From assembly GCF_902364355.1 (NCBI RefSeq), contig NZ_CABJDK010000001.1, positions 488,661 through 552,660 on the forward strand: a stretch of 64,000 nucleotides of DNA, in the 5' to 3' direction. Source of the stretch: Collinsella aerofaciens (GTDB lineage: Bacteria; Actinomycetota; Coriobacteriia; Coriobacteriales; Coriobacteriaceae). Position numbers and translations under genes: made by a program. Positions 7,478 to 12,151 of this stretch are shown here, in pieces (positions within the stretch are counted from its first letter, which is position 1; each line of letters opens with the position of its first letter). The notes under the pieces were generated by a model that saw nothing but the letters and a program-made list of their open reading frames with translations, was not told the DNA's origin and did no database searches.

Positions 7478-8296
7478 TTAGCCGATGGCCGACCTGAGCT
7501 CCGCACGGCGCTTTTTCATGCCGGCCATGACGGCGTTGCGCAGCTCGGGCATGCGCGCGGTATCCATCTGGGGCACGCCCTCGAGCTTATAGGGAATACC
7601 CAGTTGCTCGTACTTGACGACACCCATCGTGTGATACGGCAGCATTTCCAGGCCCACCACGTTGTGCCATGGAGCGATCAGGCGACCGAGCTTCTCGCAT
7701 TCCTCCGCCGTGTCGGTGATACCCGGCACCACCACATGGCGAATAACAACCTTAATCTTGCGATGGGCAAGCTCATCGCCAAACGCCAGGATGCGCGCAG
7801 GATCGCAACCGGTCAGCTTTTTATGCTCAACCGGATCGGCATGCTTGATGTCGAGCAGCACCATATCGGTCTCGTTGAGAACAGCATCGAACTTCTCCGG
7901 ATGCTTGGGATCAAATGCATAGCCACAGCTATCTAGGCAGGTATGCACACGGCCATCGGGATTGTTGTGCATTGCACGGAACAGGTCGGCCAAAAACTCG
8001 GGCTGCAGGAGCGGTTCGCCACCCGAAACGGTAATGCCGCCGCTACGGTAGAACTCATGGTTGCTCTGGAACTCGTCCATGAGATGCTCGACGGTCACCA
8101 TCGTGCCGCCGTTAACAGACCAGGTATCGGGATTGTGGCAATACGCGCAGCGCATGGGACAGCCCTGAACAAACACCACAAAGCGGATGCCGGGTCCGTC
8201 GACCGTTCCCATCGTCTCGATCGAATGCACGCGACCCAGGGCATACGCAGAGTCCTCGGGACGAGCGTCCACACCCTCAAGCGTCATTTCTGCCAT
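7478..8296 (-). CDS. pflA: Pyruvate formate-lyase activating enzyme
   Basis: Radical SAM enzyme that installs the glycyl radical on PFL. The GCPMRCAYCHNPD segment holds the CX3CX2C cluster motif; GGITVSGGEPLLQP follows. 272 aa from the ATG at 8296; a TTG at 8326 overlaps the AAGGAG and is not used. It is separated from the PFL genes by degV and an alpha palindrome, but its substrate glycine is probably on the 83-aa protein at 9763-10014. Confidence 0.93.
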   Translation of the reverse strand: MAEMTLEGVDARPEDSAYALGRVHSIETMGTVDGPGIRFVVFVQGCPMRCAYCHNPDTWSVNGGTMVTVEHLMDEFQSNHEFYRSGGITVSGGEPLLQPEFLADLFRAMHNNPDGRVHTCLDSCGYAFDPKHPEKFDAVLNETDMVLLDIKHADPVEHKKLTGCDPARILAFGDELAHRKIKVVIRHVVVPGITDTAEECEKLGRLIAPWHNVVGLEMLPYHTMGVVKYEQLGIPYKLEGVPQMDTARMPELRNAVMAGMKKRRAELRSAIG

Positions 8297-8471
8297 TCGC
8301 GCTACCTTGCCTCTCCTTGGATGCAACCAATTAAAATGCCAGAGCCATTCTAGCCCATGCGTTTGCGTTTAAACGTCTCGGACTAGAACGGCACGTTTTA
8401 ATCTATCCCCCATCACCATGGCTGGGGGGCTACGTCGAGATGTCAGGCTGGAGAACGCTCGCCTGCGGCCT

Positions 8472-9332
8472 TTACGCCTTAAGCGTGAGCACCGCGCCGA
8501 AGGCGGTCGGGCCGCAATGGCTCGAGATGACGCCGCCAACCTGCGTCCAGGTAACGTCCTCAAAGCCCAGGTCGTGCGCATAGACTTCCATGTCGTCGCG
8601 CAGCTCCTGGGAAAGGCCCACCGAATACGCCAAGCCAATGTGCGAGTAATCAATATCGCCCTTGGCAACCATGTGGTCAATAAAGGCACGGGCGCATTTG
8701 AGCATGGAGCCGCGGAGCTTCTTGGTCGCCACGAACTTGCCACCCGTCACCTCAATGCAGGGCTTAATCTTGAGCAGATGAGCGCCCAGGAACGCGGCGT
8801 TAGACAAGCGACCGCCCGCCTTAAGGAAGGCAAGGTCGGTAGGAACAAAGCCCAGCAGCACGCGGTCCATGACGGAGTTCGTAAAAGCAAAAATCTCATC
8901 GACGGTGGCATCGGGGTGAGCCTCGATGTATTTGGCGGTCTCGACGGCAACGAGCGACTGGCCAACCGAAACAAAACGCGTGTCCATAGAGAAGACGTAG
9001 TCGCGGCCCTTAGCTGCAATCTTGGAGGACTGATGCGAGCAGGTCGTGGCCTCGGAATATGCGAGATGCAAAATGGTCGCGTCGGGCTGCTCGGCATGGA
9101 TGCGGTCGTACACGTGAGCAAAATCCGCAGGCGCGCAGCCACTGGTCTTGGGCATCACGCCAAACTCGTTGCAGCGCGAATAAATCTCAAGCGGATCGAT
9201 CGAGCCGTCCTCGACGGTCTCGTCACCAATCGTGACATGCATGGGCACACGCACGATGCCATAGCGCTCGCAGAGCTCCGGTGTCACATCCGAACCAGAC
9301 TCAACCACGATTACGTACTTGCCCATTATCAT
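8472..9332 (-). CDS. DegV family fatty-acid-binding protein
   Basis: DegV/FakB-type protein that binds a fatty acid for phosphorylation by a FakA kinase. N-terminus KYVIVVESGSDVTPEL and the segment HLAYSEATTCSHQSS carry the family residues; RLSNAAFLGAHLLKIKPCIE is also typical. About 286 aa. The start is uncertain: GTG, ATG and ATG are all in frame at 9335, 9332 and 9326, and the ribosome site is weak. No fakA is nearby. The upstream stretch 9333-9610 contains two AAACGGTAGC repeats (near 9516 and 9533) but no gene. Confidence 0.9.
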   Translation of the reverse strand: MIMGKYVIVVESGSDVTPELCERYGIVRVPMHVTIGDETVEDGSIDPLEIYSRCNEFGVMPKTSGCAPADFAHVYDRIHAEQPDATILHLAYSEATTCSHQSSKIAAKGRDYVFSMDTRFVSVGQSLVAVETAKYIEAHPDATVDEIFAFTNSVMDRVLLGFVPTDLAFLKAGGRLSNAAFLGAHLLKIKPCIEVTGGKFVATKKLRGSMLKCARAFIDHMVAKGDIDYSHIGLAYSVGLSQELRDDMEVYAHDLGFEDVTWTQVGGVISSHCGPTAFGAVLTLKA

Positions 9333-9610
9333 CACGACCCATCTCGACGTTGGTTATTTATTACGCGCGCACGCCCGTCGCCCAATTGAACAACGACTCC
9401 CAAGCACCAGAGAGACGCCGCCCTTCGCCACAACAAAGGACAGCGTCTCCCTGAAATACTCCGTGCTTGCATGAGATTCTACACGGTTTGGTAATGAGTG
9501 TTACTTACTCCGCAAACGGTAGCTATATGCGATAAACGGTAGCAAGCAAGAATCCAGAACGCTCAACCCATTAGGAGAGTTCCGCCTAAAGGGTGACTAC
9601 ACAGGACCCC

Positions 9611-9739
9611 GCCGGGGCTGTTTGAGCTACCTCCCAAAATATTCCGCAGGACGCAAGAAGCCCTCGCCGCACAAAGTGCGCAGCGAGGGCTTCTTGCATG
9701 TCCGAGGACGTTTTGGGAGGTAGCTCAAACAGCCCCGGC
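9611..9739. repeat. Nested palindrome, family alpha copy C
   Basis: Perfect 29-bp inverted repeat: 9611-9639 pairs with 9711-9739. Inside is a second hairpin of GCAAGAAGCCCTCGC / GCGAGGGCTTCTTGC with small asymmetries. The 70-nt core (9641-9710) begins ATTCCGCAGG and ends TCCGAGGACG, and is nearly the same as in copy E at 37257-37325 although the outer arms are unrelated. It lies downstream of the split PFL genes. Confidence 0.88.
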
Positions 9740-9762
9740 GATCCTGCGGGAGTTAAACCCCT

Positions 9763-10014
9763 TTAGAACTTGTTGTGGAAGGTACGCGAAATGACCTCGT
9801 CCTGCTGCTCCTTGGTGAGCGTGTGGAAGTTCACGGCATAGCCGGAAACGCGGATGGTCAGCTGCGGGTACTTCTCGGGGTGAGCCTGAGCGTCAAGCAG
9901 CGTCTCACGGTTGAAGACGTTGATGTTCAGGTGGTGGCCACCCTTCTCGGCGTAAGCGTCGAGCATGTGGACCAGGTTATCGGCCTGAGTCTCGGAAACT
10001 TCAGAAACCTTCAT
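9763..10014 (-). CDS. Separate glycyl-radical domain of pyruvate formate-lyase
   Basis: 83 aa that align with the last ~80 residues of ordinary [36 protein letters not shown] and ISRTFH. Gly58 in RVSGY is the radical site. GrcA/YfiD proteins look like this, but they coexist with complete PFL, whereas the pflB upstream ends before this domain. A strong AAGGAGA and its own ATG argue against a frameshift. Inference: it combines with the 683-aa PflB to form the working enzyme and is activated by PflA. Confidence 0.9.
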
Positions 10015-10099
10015 AATGTGTCTCCTTCGATTAATAGGCGCCGGCCGAAACCGGCACGCTAATCAGTAATCGTTATTGTTAGTATAGCACTAACAATAG
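10015..10099 (-). promoter_or_regulatory. Two hairpins between the PFL halves
   Basis: The 85-nt spacer has ATTGTTAGT / ACTAACAAT around GCTAT just after the pflB stop, and a GCCGG / CCGGC hairpin just before the ribosome site of the small gene. Neither has a U-tract. They may set the ratio of the two subunits by mRNA processing or stabilisation; this is inference. Confidence 0.5.
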
Positions 10100-12151
10100 T
10101 TACTCGCCCAGCTGATCAAGGTCGATATCGCCAAAGAACACCTGGTCCTCCTTGCCGAGCGCGCCCGGGATGATGGAGAAGGTGTTGGAGATGCCGTCCT
10201 GAGCATCGCGGAACGGGAGCTTGGAAACCGAAGACAGCGAAGCGATGGCGCCGTGGCTATCGCGCTTGTGCATGGGGTTAGCACCCGGGGCGAAGGGCTG
10301 GCCAGCCTTGCGGCCATCAGGCGTAGAACCGGTCTTCTTGCCGTACACGACGTTGGAGGTGATGGTCAGAACCGAGGTCGTGGGCACGGAGTTGCGGTAG
10401 GTGTCGTTCATGCGGATGTACTCCATGAACTGGTGCACAACGTCGTGAGCGATCTGGTCGACGCGGTCGTCGTCGTTACCGTACTTGGGGAACTCGCCCT
10501 CGGTCTCGAAGTCGACAATGATGCCGTTCTCGTCGCGGACGGGGTGGACCTTGGCGTACTTGATGGCGGACAGGGAGTCAGCCACGACGGAAAGGCCAGC
10601 AATGCCCGTAGCGAACCAGCGGTGCACGTGCTTGTCGTGCAGAGCCATCTGGATGCGCTCGTAGCAATACTTGTCGTGCATGTAGTGGATGATGTTCAGC
10701 GAGTTGACGTACACGCCAGCGAGCCACTTCATCATGTCGTTGTACTTGGCCACAACGTCGTCGTAATCGAGCGTATCGCCCTCGACGGCGCGATACTTGG
10801 GGCCGACCTGCTTCTTGGAGACCTCGTCAACACCGCCGTTGAGTGCGTACAGCAGGCACTTGGCCAGGTTGGCACGGGCGCCGAAGAACTGCATCTCCTT
10901 GCCGATGCGCATGGAGGACACACAGCAGGCAATGCCGTAGTCGTCGCCGTGGTAGACGCGCATGAGGTCGTCGTTCTCGTACTGGATCGAGGAGCTGGCA
11001 ACAGAAGTCTTGGCGCAGAACTTCTTGAAGTTCTCGGGCAGACGGGTCGACCACAGAACGGTCATGTTGGGCTCGGGGCTGGTGCCCATGTTCTCGAGCG
11101 TGTGCAGGTAGCGGTAGCTCATCTTGGTAACGAGCGTACGGCCGTCAACACCCATGCCGCCGATGGACTCGGTGACCCACTGCGGATCGCCGGTAAACAG
11201 GGCCTGGTACTCGGGGGTACGGGCAAACTTGACCATGCGGAGCTTCATGATGAAGTGATCCACGAACTCCTGGATCTGCTCCTCGGTGAAGGTACCGTTG
11301 GCAAGGTCGCGCTCAGCGTAGATGTCGATGAACGTGGAGGTACGGCCGATGGACATAGCGGCGCCGTTCTGCTCCTTGACGGAAGCGAGGTAGGCGAAGT
11401 ACATCCACTGGATGGCCTCCTGCGTGTTGGTAGCAGGGTTGGAAATGTCGAAACCATAGGTCTCGGCCATCATCTTGAGCTCGCCGAGGGCGCGGATCTG
11501 CTCCTGCAGCTCCTCACGATCGCGGATGTTGTCGGCGGTCATGACCGTCGGGGTGGAAGCCTTCTGGGCCTCCTTGTCCTTGATCAGGTAGTCGACACCG
11601 TACAGGGCGACACGACGGTAGTCGCCGATGATGCGGCCGCGGCCATAGCCATCGGGCAGACCGGTGATGATGTGGGCCGAACGGCAGGCGCGCATCTCGG
11701 GGGTGTAGACATCGAAGACGCCGGCGTTGTGGGTCTTGCGCTCGAAGGTGTAGCGCTCGACAACGTTCTCGTCGATCTTGTAGCCGTGCTGGCTGGCAGC
11801 CTGGCAAGCGATGCGGATACCGCCGTTGACGTGCAGCGCGCGCTTGAGCGGCTTGTCGGTCTGGAGGCCGACGATGGTCTCCTTGTCGCGATGGGCGTTA
11901 TCGATGTAGCCAGCGGGGTGGCTCACGATACCCGTGACGGTCTTGGTGTCCATATCGAGGACGCCGCCCTGCTCGCGCTCCTTGAGCAGCAGGTCGAGAA
12001 CCTCGCCCCACAGCTCCTTGGTACGCTCGGTCGGGCCGGCGAGGAACGACTCGTCGCCCTCGTAGGGGGTGTAGTTCTTCTGGATGAAGTCTCGGACGTC
12101 AACCTCTCCCGTCCAGATGCCTTCCTTGAAGCCTTCCCATGCCTCCTGCAT
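10100..12151 (-). CDS. pflB: Pyruvate formate-lyase, truncated before the radical domain
   Basis: Cleaves pyruvate with CoA to acetyl-CoA and formate. The catalytic Cys pair is C409-C410 in [13 protein letters not shown]. The 683-aa protein ends at [17 protein letters not shown], where other PFLs continue for about 75 residues to the essential RVSGY glycine. That domain is encoded by the next gene; together they total 766 aa, close to the roughly 760 aa of E. coli PflB. The start ATG has AGGAG 12 nt upstream. A one-piece pflB elsewhere in the genome cannot be excluded. Confidence 0.93.

Follow-up and report, generated by a model that had tools for sequence, protein, structure and literature searches.

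Pyruvate formate-lyase of Collinsella aerofaciens as a probable obligate two-subunit enzyme with its radical glycine on a separate 83-residue protein

The Collinsella aerofaciens locus analyzed here, part of a 64,000-nucleotide stretch of contig NZ_CABJDK010000001.1 (the window), in all likelihood encodes an obligate two-subunit pyruvate formate-lyase (PFL), in which the activase PflA is predicted from sequence to set the radical on Gly58 of the small subunit, GrcA3. The protein with the Cys pair ends just before the helix that enters the radical domain, and that helix, together with the radical loop, forms a separate gene. An earlier note on this DNA had described a PFL in two genes with the radical glycine on a separate 83-aa protein, a description that the open reading frames match; the ribosome site of the small gene and the 85-nt spacer with two hairpins are both present as it stated. 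What it overlooked is the new tail of the large subunit, the NCBI GrcA3 family and the pflB-grcA3-pflA cluster. The features are:

10100..12151, reverse strand: pflB core, PFL large subunit without the glycyl-radical domain, 683 aa (TIGR01255, PF02901)
10922-10927, reverse strand: Cys409-Cys410 of the pflB core, read from the sequence
10103..10150, reverse strand: large-subunit tail past LGK, 16 residues, acidic, no Cys
10015..10099, reverse strand: pflB-grcA3 spacer, 85 nt, containing two hairpins, one AT-rich (10074-10098) and one GC-rich (10037-10058)
10022..10027, reverse strand: AAGGAG ribosome site of grcA3, 7 nt 5' of the ATG, read from the sequence
9763..10014, reverse strand: grcA3, separate glycyl-radical subunit, 83 aa (NF038360, PF01228)
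9841-9843, reverse strand: codon of the radical Gly58 of grcA3, read from the sequence
9610..9740, reverse strand: nested palindrome 3' of grcA3, 131 nt
8472..9335, reverse strand: DegV-family gene, here between grcA3 and pflA (TIGR00762)
7478..8326, reverse strand: pflA, radical-SAM activase (TIGR02493, 285 bits)

The large ORF scores 1084 bits against TIGR01255 (cut-off 994), covering positions 1-665 of 744; the match ends there, and the C-terminal glycyl-radical domain is not on the same chain. The small ORF carries RVSGY and scores 165.4 bits against NF038360 GrcA3 (cut-off 158), while its 97.2 bits against TIGR04365 (GrcA/YfiD) fall below the cut-off of 170. Against E. coli PFL, the large ORF is alignable through residue 680, after which 12 residues have no counterpart, and the small ORF is alignable from its own residue 8, equivalent to E. 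coli residue 679, onward. The two ORFs together represent the E. coli enzyme fully except for a 5-residue loop that is extra in E. coli, and both new ends (the large C-terminus and the small N-terminus) gained residues relative to it. The earlier note had added 683 and 83 to 766 aa and equated this with a normal PFL; the sum is correct, but the equation hides the 12-residue tail without an E. coli counterpart.

The substrates of glycyl-radical enzymes are diverse, and many relatives are on record, such that the two-piece enzyme could in principle be a glycyl-radical enzyme for another substrate, for example another 2-keto acid. This is very improbable given that the TIGR01255 equivalog score exceeds its cut-off and that the AlphaFold model of the large subunit (pLDDT 83.6) has a TM score of 0.92 and 63% identity to E. 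coli PFL (2pfl). Formate also counts against another substrate, as Table 1 of PMC9381525 gives C. aerofaciens as a formate former.

The possibility that a sequencing error, a pseudogene, stop readthrough or a frameshift conceals a one-piece enzyme can almost certainly be dismissed. Damaged relatives do occur, with an in-frame stop in the large gene of L274 (G621:C3) and a frameshift in L108, but the cut recurs in 105 Coriobacteriia genomes and in other phyla, and RefSeq has two intact, adjoining genes, pflB and grcA3, in C. aerofaciens TSDC17.2-1.1 (with no pflA within the next 4 kb). Spacers between the two genes range from 14 to 270 nt and fall in all three phases among the 49 pairs read base by base (window included; the frameshifted L108 was excluded from pair statistics), and therefore neither readthrough nor a single frameshift could join the parts. 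Recurrence, spacer phases and RefSeq annotation thus reject artefact, readthrough and frameshift alike, including the sequencing error removing a stop that the earlier note had named as its own refuter. In grcA3, the window differs from L064 or L071 by two synonymous and no replacement codons out of 84. A 900-kb C. aerofaciens replicon labelled as a plasmid (L291, NZ_OY725717.1) bears the locus, and its next 4 kb are without pflA.

The distribution of the split was assessed among 396 genomes of the class of G001, the nearest genome compared; this class is Coriobacteriia by G001's titled relatives, and class and family names of coded groups were likewise inferred from titled loci. A search with the GrcA3 domain and a search with PFL converged on an identical set of 105 genomes in which a cut PFL accompanies GrcA3, consisting of 104 above the GrcA3 cut-off and G330 slightly below it, with G379 and G387 counted as split though their large gene matched only in part. 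A PFL match of any kind occurred in 137 Coriobacteriia genomes, with the one-piece form in 31, a disrupted gene in G329 and a gene cut by the contig end in G130. Within G001's family, 58 of the 61 sampled genomes are split, two have no match and one, G162, is one-piece. G162 belongs to G001's genus and solely carries a one-piece PFL of another lineage (L042, L114) with pflA upstream, an apparent replacement of the split enzyme.

Coriobacteriia, to which the survey proposed in the earlier note was confined, proved too narrow a scope, as several phyla carry the split. A scan of titled genomes was baited with the small protein, and the best 80 of 579 relatives were kept. The small gene stands alone in all 80, and a PFL without the glycyl-radical domain lies upstream in 79, at most 406 nt off and in one case overlapping by 4 nt; at the 80th locus the contig begins too close to show the upstream gene. 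Split carriers among these best 80 of 579 include Collinsella, Enorma, Slackia equolifaciens and Lancefieldella; Blautia, Ruminococcus albus, R. bicirculans, [Clostridium] citroniae and Holdemania; and a Spirochaetales MAG and Melainabacteria/Cyanobacteria MAGs. In the tree, the Spirochaetales locus (L154) is surrounded by Lachnospiraceae rows, possibly because of a binning error. A sample of 245 Clostridia genomes from the class of a Blautia, drawn without the small-protein bait except for its centre G408, contained a PFL match in 124 and the cut form in 12 including G408, and the small gene is downstream in all of the other 11. Of 60 genomes from the class to which the Cyanobacteria MAG UBA2855 belongs, two matched PFL (this centre included), both cut. 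It should be noted that part of the split set was baited with the small protein, and a split PFL whose small part is dissimilar could escape.

Among phage records, matches to the small protein numbered 1538, of which 34 covered more than 80% of it, and the 20 listed were mostly enterobacterial-phage GrcA-like proteins; the 145 matches to plasmid records were, among the 20 listed, mostly annotated pflB. One record from human feces deposited as 'Bacteriophage sp.' (L293, MT838895.1) contains a pflB-grcA3-pflA cluster and looks bacterial.

GrcA3 could be an ordinary spare part, as GrcA/YfiD is, serving a one-piece PFL elsewhere in the genome while the 683-aa gene is dead or regulatory. The NCBI name, 'autonomous glycyl radical cofactor GrcA3', implies such a role, and G171 and Blautia caecimuris carry both kinds of PFL. 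These two are the exceptions: a one-piece PFL was not found in 104 of the 105 split Coriobacteriia genomes (the PFL search scored two candidates per genome, and the absence also rests on the GrcA3-domain search), in 19 of the 20 chosen genomes behind the titled loci, all 20 of which have a cut PFL, or as a second PFL in any of the 12 split Clostridia genomes (up to four candidates per genome scored). No PFL besides the split pair was found in G001, and the one-piece PFL elsewhere that the earlier note had named as a refuter thus fails in the nearest relative compared; the third radical-domain (PF01228) hit in G001, considered as a PFL, is NrdD. A dead or regulatory large gene also sits poorly with a Cys pair that is invariant across 60 aligned split large subunits and with 17 synonymous versus two replacement differences, as a plain count, between the window and L064 in the first 300 codons of pflB. 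Finally, the alignment of GrcA3 with E. coli PFL starts at residue 8 of GrcA3, and that with E. coli GrcA not before residue 22. With no accompanying one-piece PFL found, the role of a spare part is rejected for most carriers and retains little probability overall. By these comparisons, and with GrcA3 being without the ~60-residue N-terminal half of GrcA, the suggestion of the earlier note that the separate domain is obligatory holds up.

The obligate two-subunit enzyme shares its fold, Cys-Cys pair, RVSGY loop and activase family with PflB (TIGR01255; 759 aa in E. coli). Unlike the single polypeptide of E. coli, it is cut near residue 680 into two genes, the larger of which has gained a tail. 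GrcA/YfiD (TIGR04365; PDB 6owr) is likewise a stand-alone glycyl-radical domain, and E. coli GrcA provides PflB with the radical in trans; E. coli GrcA, however, has 127 aa with a disordered N-terminal half of ~60 residues and works beside a one-piece PFL, whereas GrcA3 keeps the PFL helix and its partner has no radical domain of its own. GrcA3 is 75-85 aa long in 81 of 82 sampled pairs, with one of 127 (starts chosen in this analysis). The small protein of the window is a member of NF038360, a family whose name says autonomous, and the evidence here favours an obligate subunit. Benzylsuccinate synthase and 4-hydroxyphenylacetate decarboxylase are also multi-subunit glycyl-radical enzymes with small subunits, but their radical domain stays on the large subunit and not the small one, and the large subunit of the decarboxylase (2y8n) matches GrcA3.

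In the proposed mechanism, GrcA3 would dock in the PflB barrel as its last strand and loop and PflA would generate the glycyl radical at Gly58. This radical would then abstract a hydrogen from the Cys pair and start pyruvate cleavage, much like E. coli GrcA in trans. Two studies describe the E. coli precedent. In cells with PflB-G734A, formate output was intermediate when GrcA was present and nil when it was absent (PMC12338860). In vitro, binding of GrcA by PFL truncated at 695 was below what could be measured, and this PFL acquired 32-fold less radical, with activity equal to wild type once activated (PMC8683613). E. coli GrcA requires its ~60-residue N-terminal half to bind damaged PFL well (PMC8683613). 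The natural cut lies ~15 residues before 695, so that the helix stays with the small part; this arrangement may be an evolved answer to weak GrcA binding and may or may not solve it.

According to the same two studies, oxygen cleaves PFL at the radical glycine (PMC8683613, PMC12338860), and because the chain is cut there the loss would be limited to 83 residues instead of 766. Oxygen damage would then cost the cell only the 83-aa part and allow the 683-aa part to be reused, a step that is less sure than the preceding ones. It is plausible that the split exists for the cheap replacement of damaged enzyme.

The split may alternatively concern dosage or regulation instead of repair, with hairpins and some promoter-like sites setting the radical subunit apart from the scaffold. 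The hairpins of the window spacer have a z of -4.6 versus dinucleotide shuffles, and no T-run follows the GC-rich hairpin at 10037-10058. Among pflB-grcA3 spacers of at least 50 nt (seven shorter spacers were left out of the folding comparison), z is below -2 in 26 of 42, compared with 25 of 42 stretches downstream of grcA3, four of 42 upstream of pflB and one of 42 coding, though these loci are related and non-independent. TATAAT at a 17-nt spacing to a loose -35 occurs, as counted with no chance control, in the spacers of five Collinsella relatives (L066, L068, L072, L073 and L112). The folding and the TATAAT sites therefore suggest that the dose of the radical subunit may be set independently of the scaffold, against which several spacers are a mere 14-33 nt with no hairpin found. 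Dosage is thus a possible explanation that we lean against, and it does not exclude repair. Spacers of the C. aerofaciens group differ at few positions (22 rows, 12 distinct), and a 13th distinct row (L135) lies outside the group.

The palindrome at 9610-9740, possibly the 3' end structure of the unit, has 30-nt perfect arms around a 21-nt inner hairpin, with a folding energy of about -120 kcal/mol. The sequence of the arms differs in L064, L071, L137 and L291 with the pairing kept, and L138 and L139 have other or decayed structures at this site. Homopolymer runs 3' of grcA3 in one MAG contig (L132, L136) look like assembly junk at the palindrome.

Farther downstream, the fetched stretch of ~7 kb shows a co-oriented pflA 3' of grcA3 for 46 of 50 Coriobacteriia loci. 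Of a second, partly overlapping set of 80 assessable loci, 62 have a co-oriented pflA within 1.5 kb, five have it at another place in the locus and 13 showed none in the fetched stretch. No pflA was found in the fetched stretch of C. aerofaciens L137 and L138 or Collinsella L139. The one-piece PFLs of many f2 genera are another lineage, with pflA upstream in the two loci examined (L113, L114). One locus (L107, G367:C1) has two grcA3 genes separated by ~5 kb. Both are followed by a pflA match, and within the fetched stretch a PFL core was found for one only.

Trees for the origin of the split were built from the PFL core only, with the radical domain and tail removed and near-identical rows thinned. 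L274, where an in-frame TAA in an otherwise open cut PFL is followed by open grcA3 and pflA (an assembly error, decay or recoding), was kept out due to its interrupted large gene. In a 129-row core tree, 78 cut PFLs fall on one side of a branch with an SH-aLRT of 99, which amounts to one change. With 40 Clostridia loci added and near copies thinned, well-supported branches of a 163-row quick tree force two changes, because L281 groups among one-piece PFLs. A careful 66-row tree that included PDB 38la has all cut forms on one side with weak support (68/46, 70% of bootstrap trees), and the 29 cut forms besides L281 and 38la group firmly together (100/98). These two sequences, which terminate at LGKDD and LGKED, respectively, are tail-less and branch near the base of that clade, as would be expected if a simple fission came before the tail. 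The core trees are compatible with one or two fissions, and re-fusion is also possible. Distances of the large and small subunits correlate across 82 pairs (Mantel r 0.61, 0 of 999 permutations). The cut most likely goes back to one fission, or perhaps two, of a gene for one-piece PFL; it would then have come to be common to several gut-anaerobe groups, and the new large-subunit tail would have grown after the cut.

This tail, counted from after LGK, is represented by 117 distinct sequences among 138 cut large subunits (some genomes occur twice), with a mean of 31.5 residues and a net acidity of 8.5. Examples include VFMGDLDIE, IENPVDCACEADASAPEGAEDR-like ends in Coriobacteriia and LEPDCACCEPNLSVDEAE in Blautia relatives. 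The number of Cys per distinct tail is zero in 28, two in 50, three in 35, four in two and five in two, and a single Cys occurs in none; control windows of 32 residues from the core of the same rows have a single Cys in 409 and pairs in 83. The two nearest Cys are adjacent or 1-2 residues apart in 79 of 89 Cys-bearing tails, and the Cys state (none versus at least two) changed at least 10 times on the tree (83 rows of the 163-row tree). The pattern suggests a dithiol or metal site. The species group of the window has a Cys-less tail, with an identical end in 21 further sampled genomes. AlphaFold gives the tail a pLDDT below 50 in two models, and in the window protein values are below 50 from residue 657 on. 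Two one-piece PFLs of deep Coriobacteriia (L034, L036) have a C-terminal extension past the radical domain that ends in VVGACVE.

Aerobic ribonucleotide reductase has a C-terminal dithiol tail, and a comparable reset arm can be proposed here. The freed tail could conceivably be a functional arm, either a dithiol or a metal site to which both halves of the dimer contribute, and could act on the active site left open by the departure of GrcA3, for example by re-reducing Cys409-Cys410 or by holding the slot for a fresh GrcA3, but we regard this as unlikely. If true, the enzyme would be a radical machine whose cartridge can be exchanged and whose reset arm is built in, and some lineages, the C. 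aerofaciens group among them, could do without the arm.

Several components of this system are already on record, namely the GrcA3 family name, the RefSeq annotation and large chains in the PDB. PDB 38lb ('Formate acetyltransferase') aligns over the entire large subunit of L103 including its Cys tail. The end of PDB 38la ('Formate acetyltransferase') at LGKED is either natural or that of the construct, and its 12 best matches in the set are all split PFLs. Both entries hold large chains only and are absent from the fold-search rows (library to April 2026), and among PDB chains matching GrcA3 at E 1e-3 none is named GrcA3. Searches of the open-licence literature brought up no description of an obligate split PFL, of GrcA3, of their distribution or origin, or of the paired-Cys tail, and no biochemical study of a GrcA3 pair. 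New here is the acidic C-terminal tail on the cut large subunit, with either no Cys or at least two.

Formate is a common currency of gut fermentation. A genome-based reconstruction of gut short-chain fatty acid metabolism (PMC9403272) assigns its formation to PflB and the activase PflA; PflB without GrcA3 should be dead in split carriers, and such models may thus overlook a third required gene. An enzyme naturally cut beside its radical site offers a radical part that can be swapped, labelled and titrated, and opens half-site reactivity, activase access and oxygen damage to direct testing.
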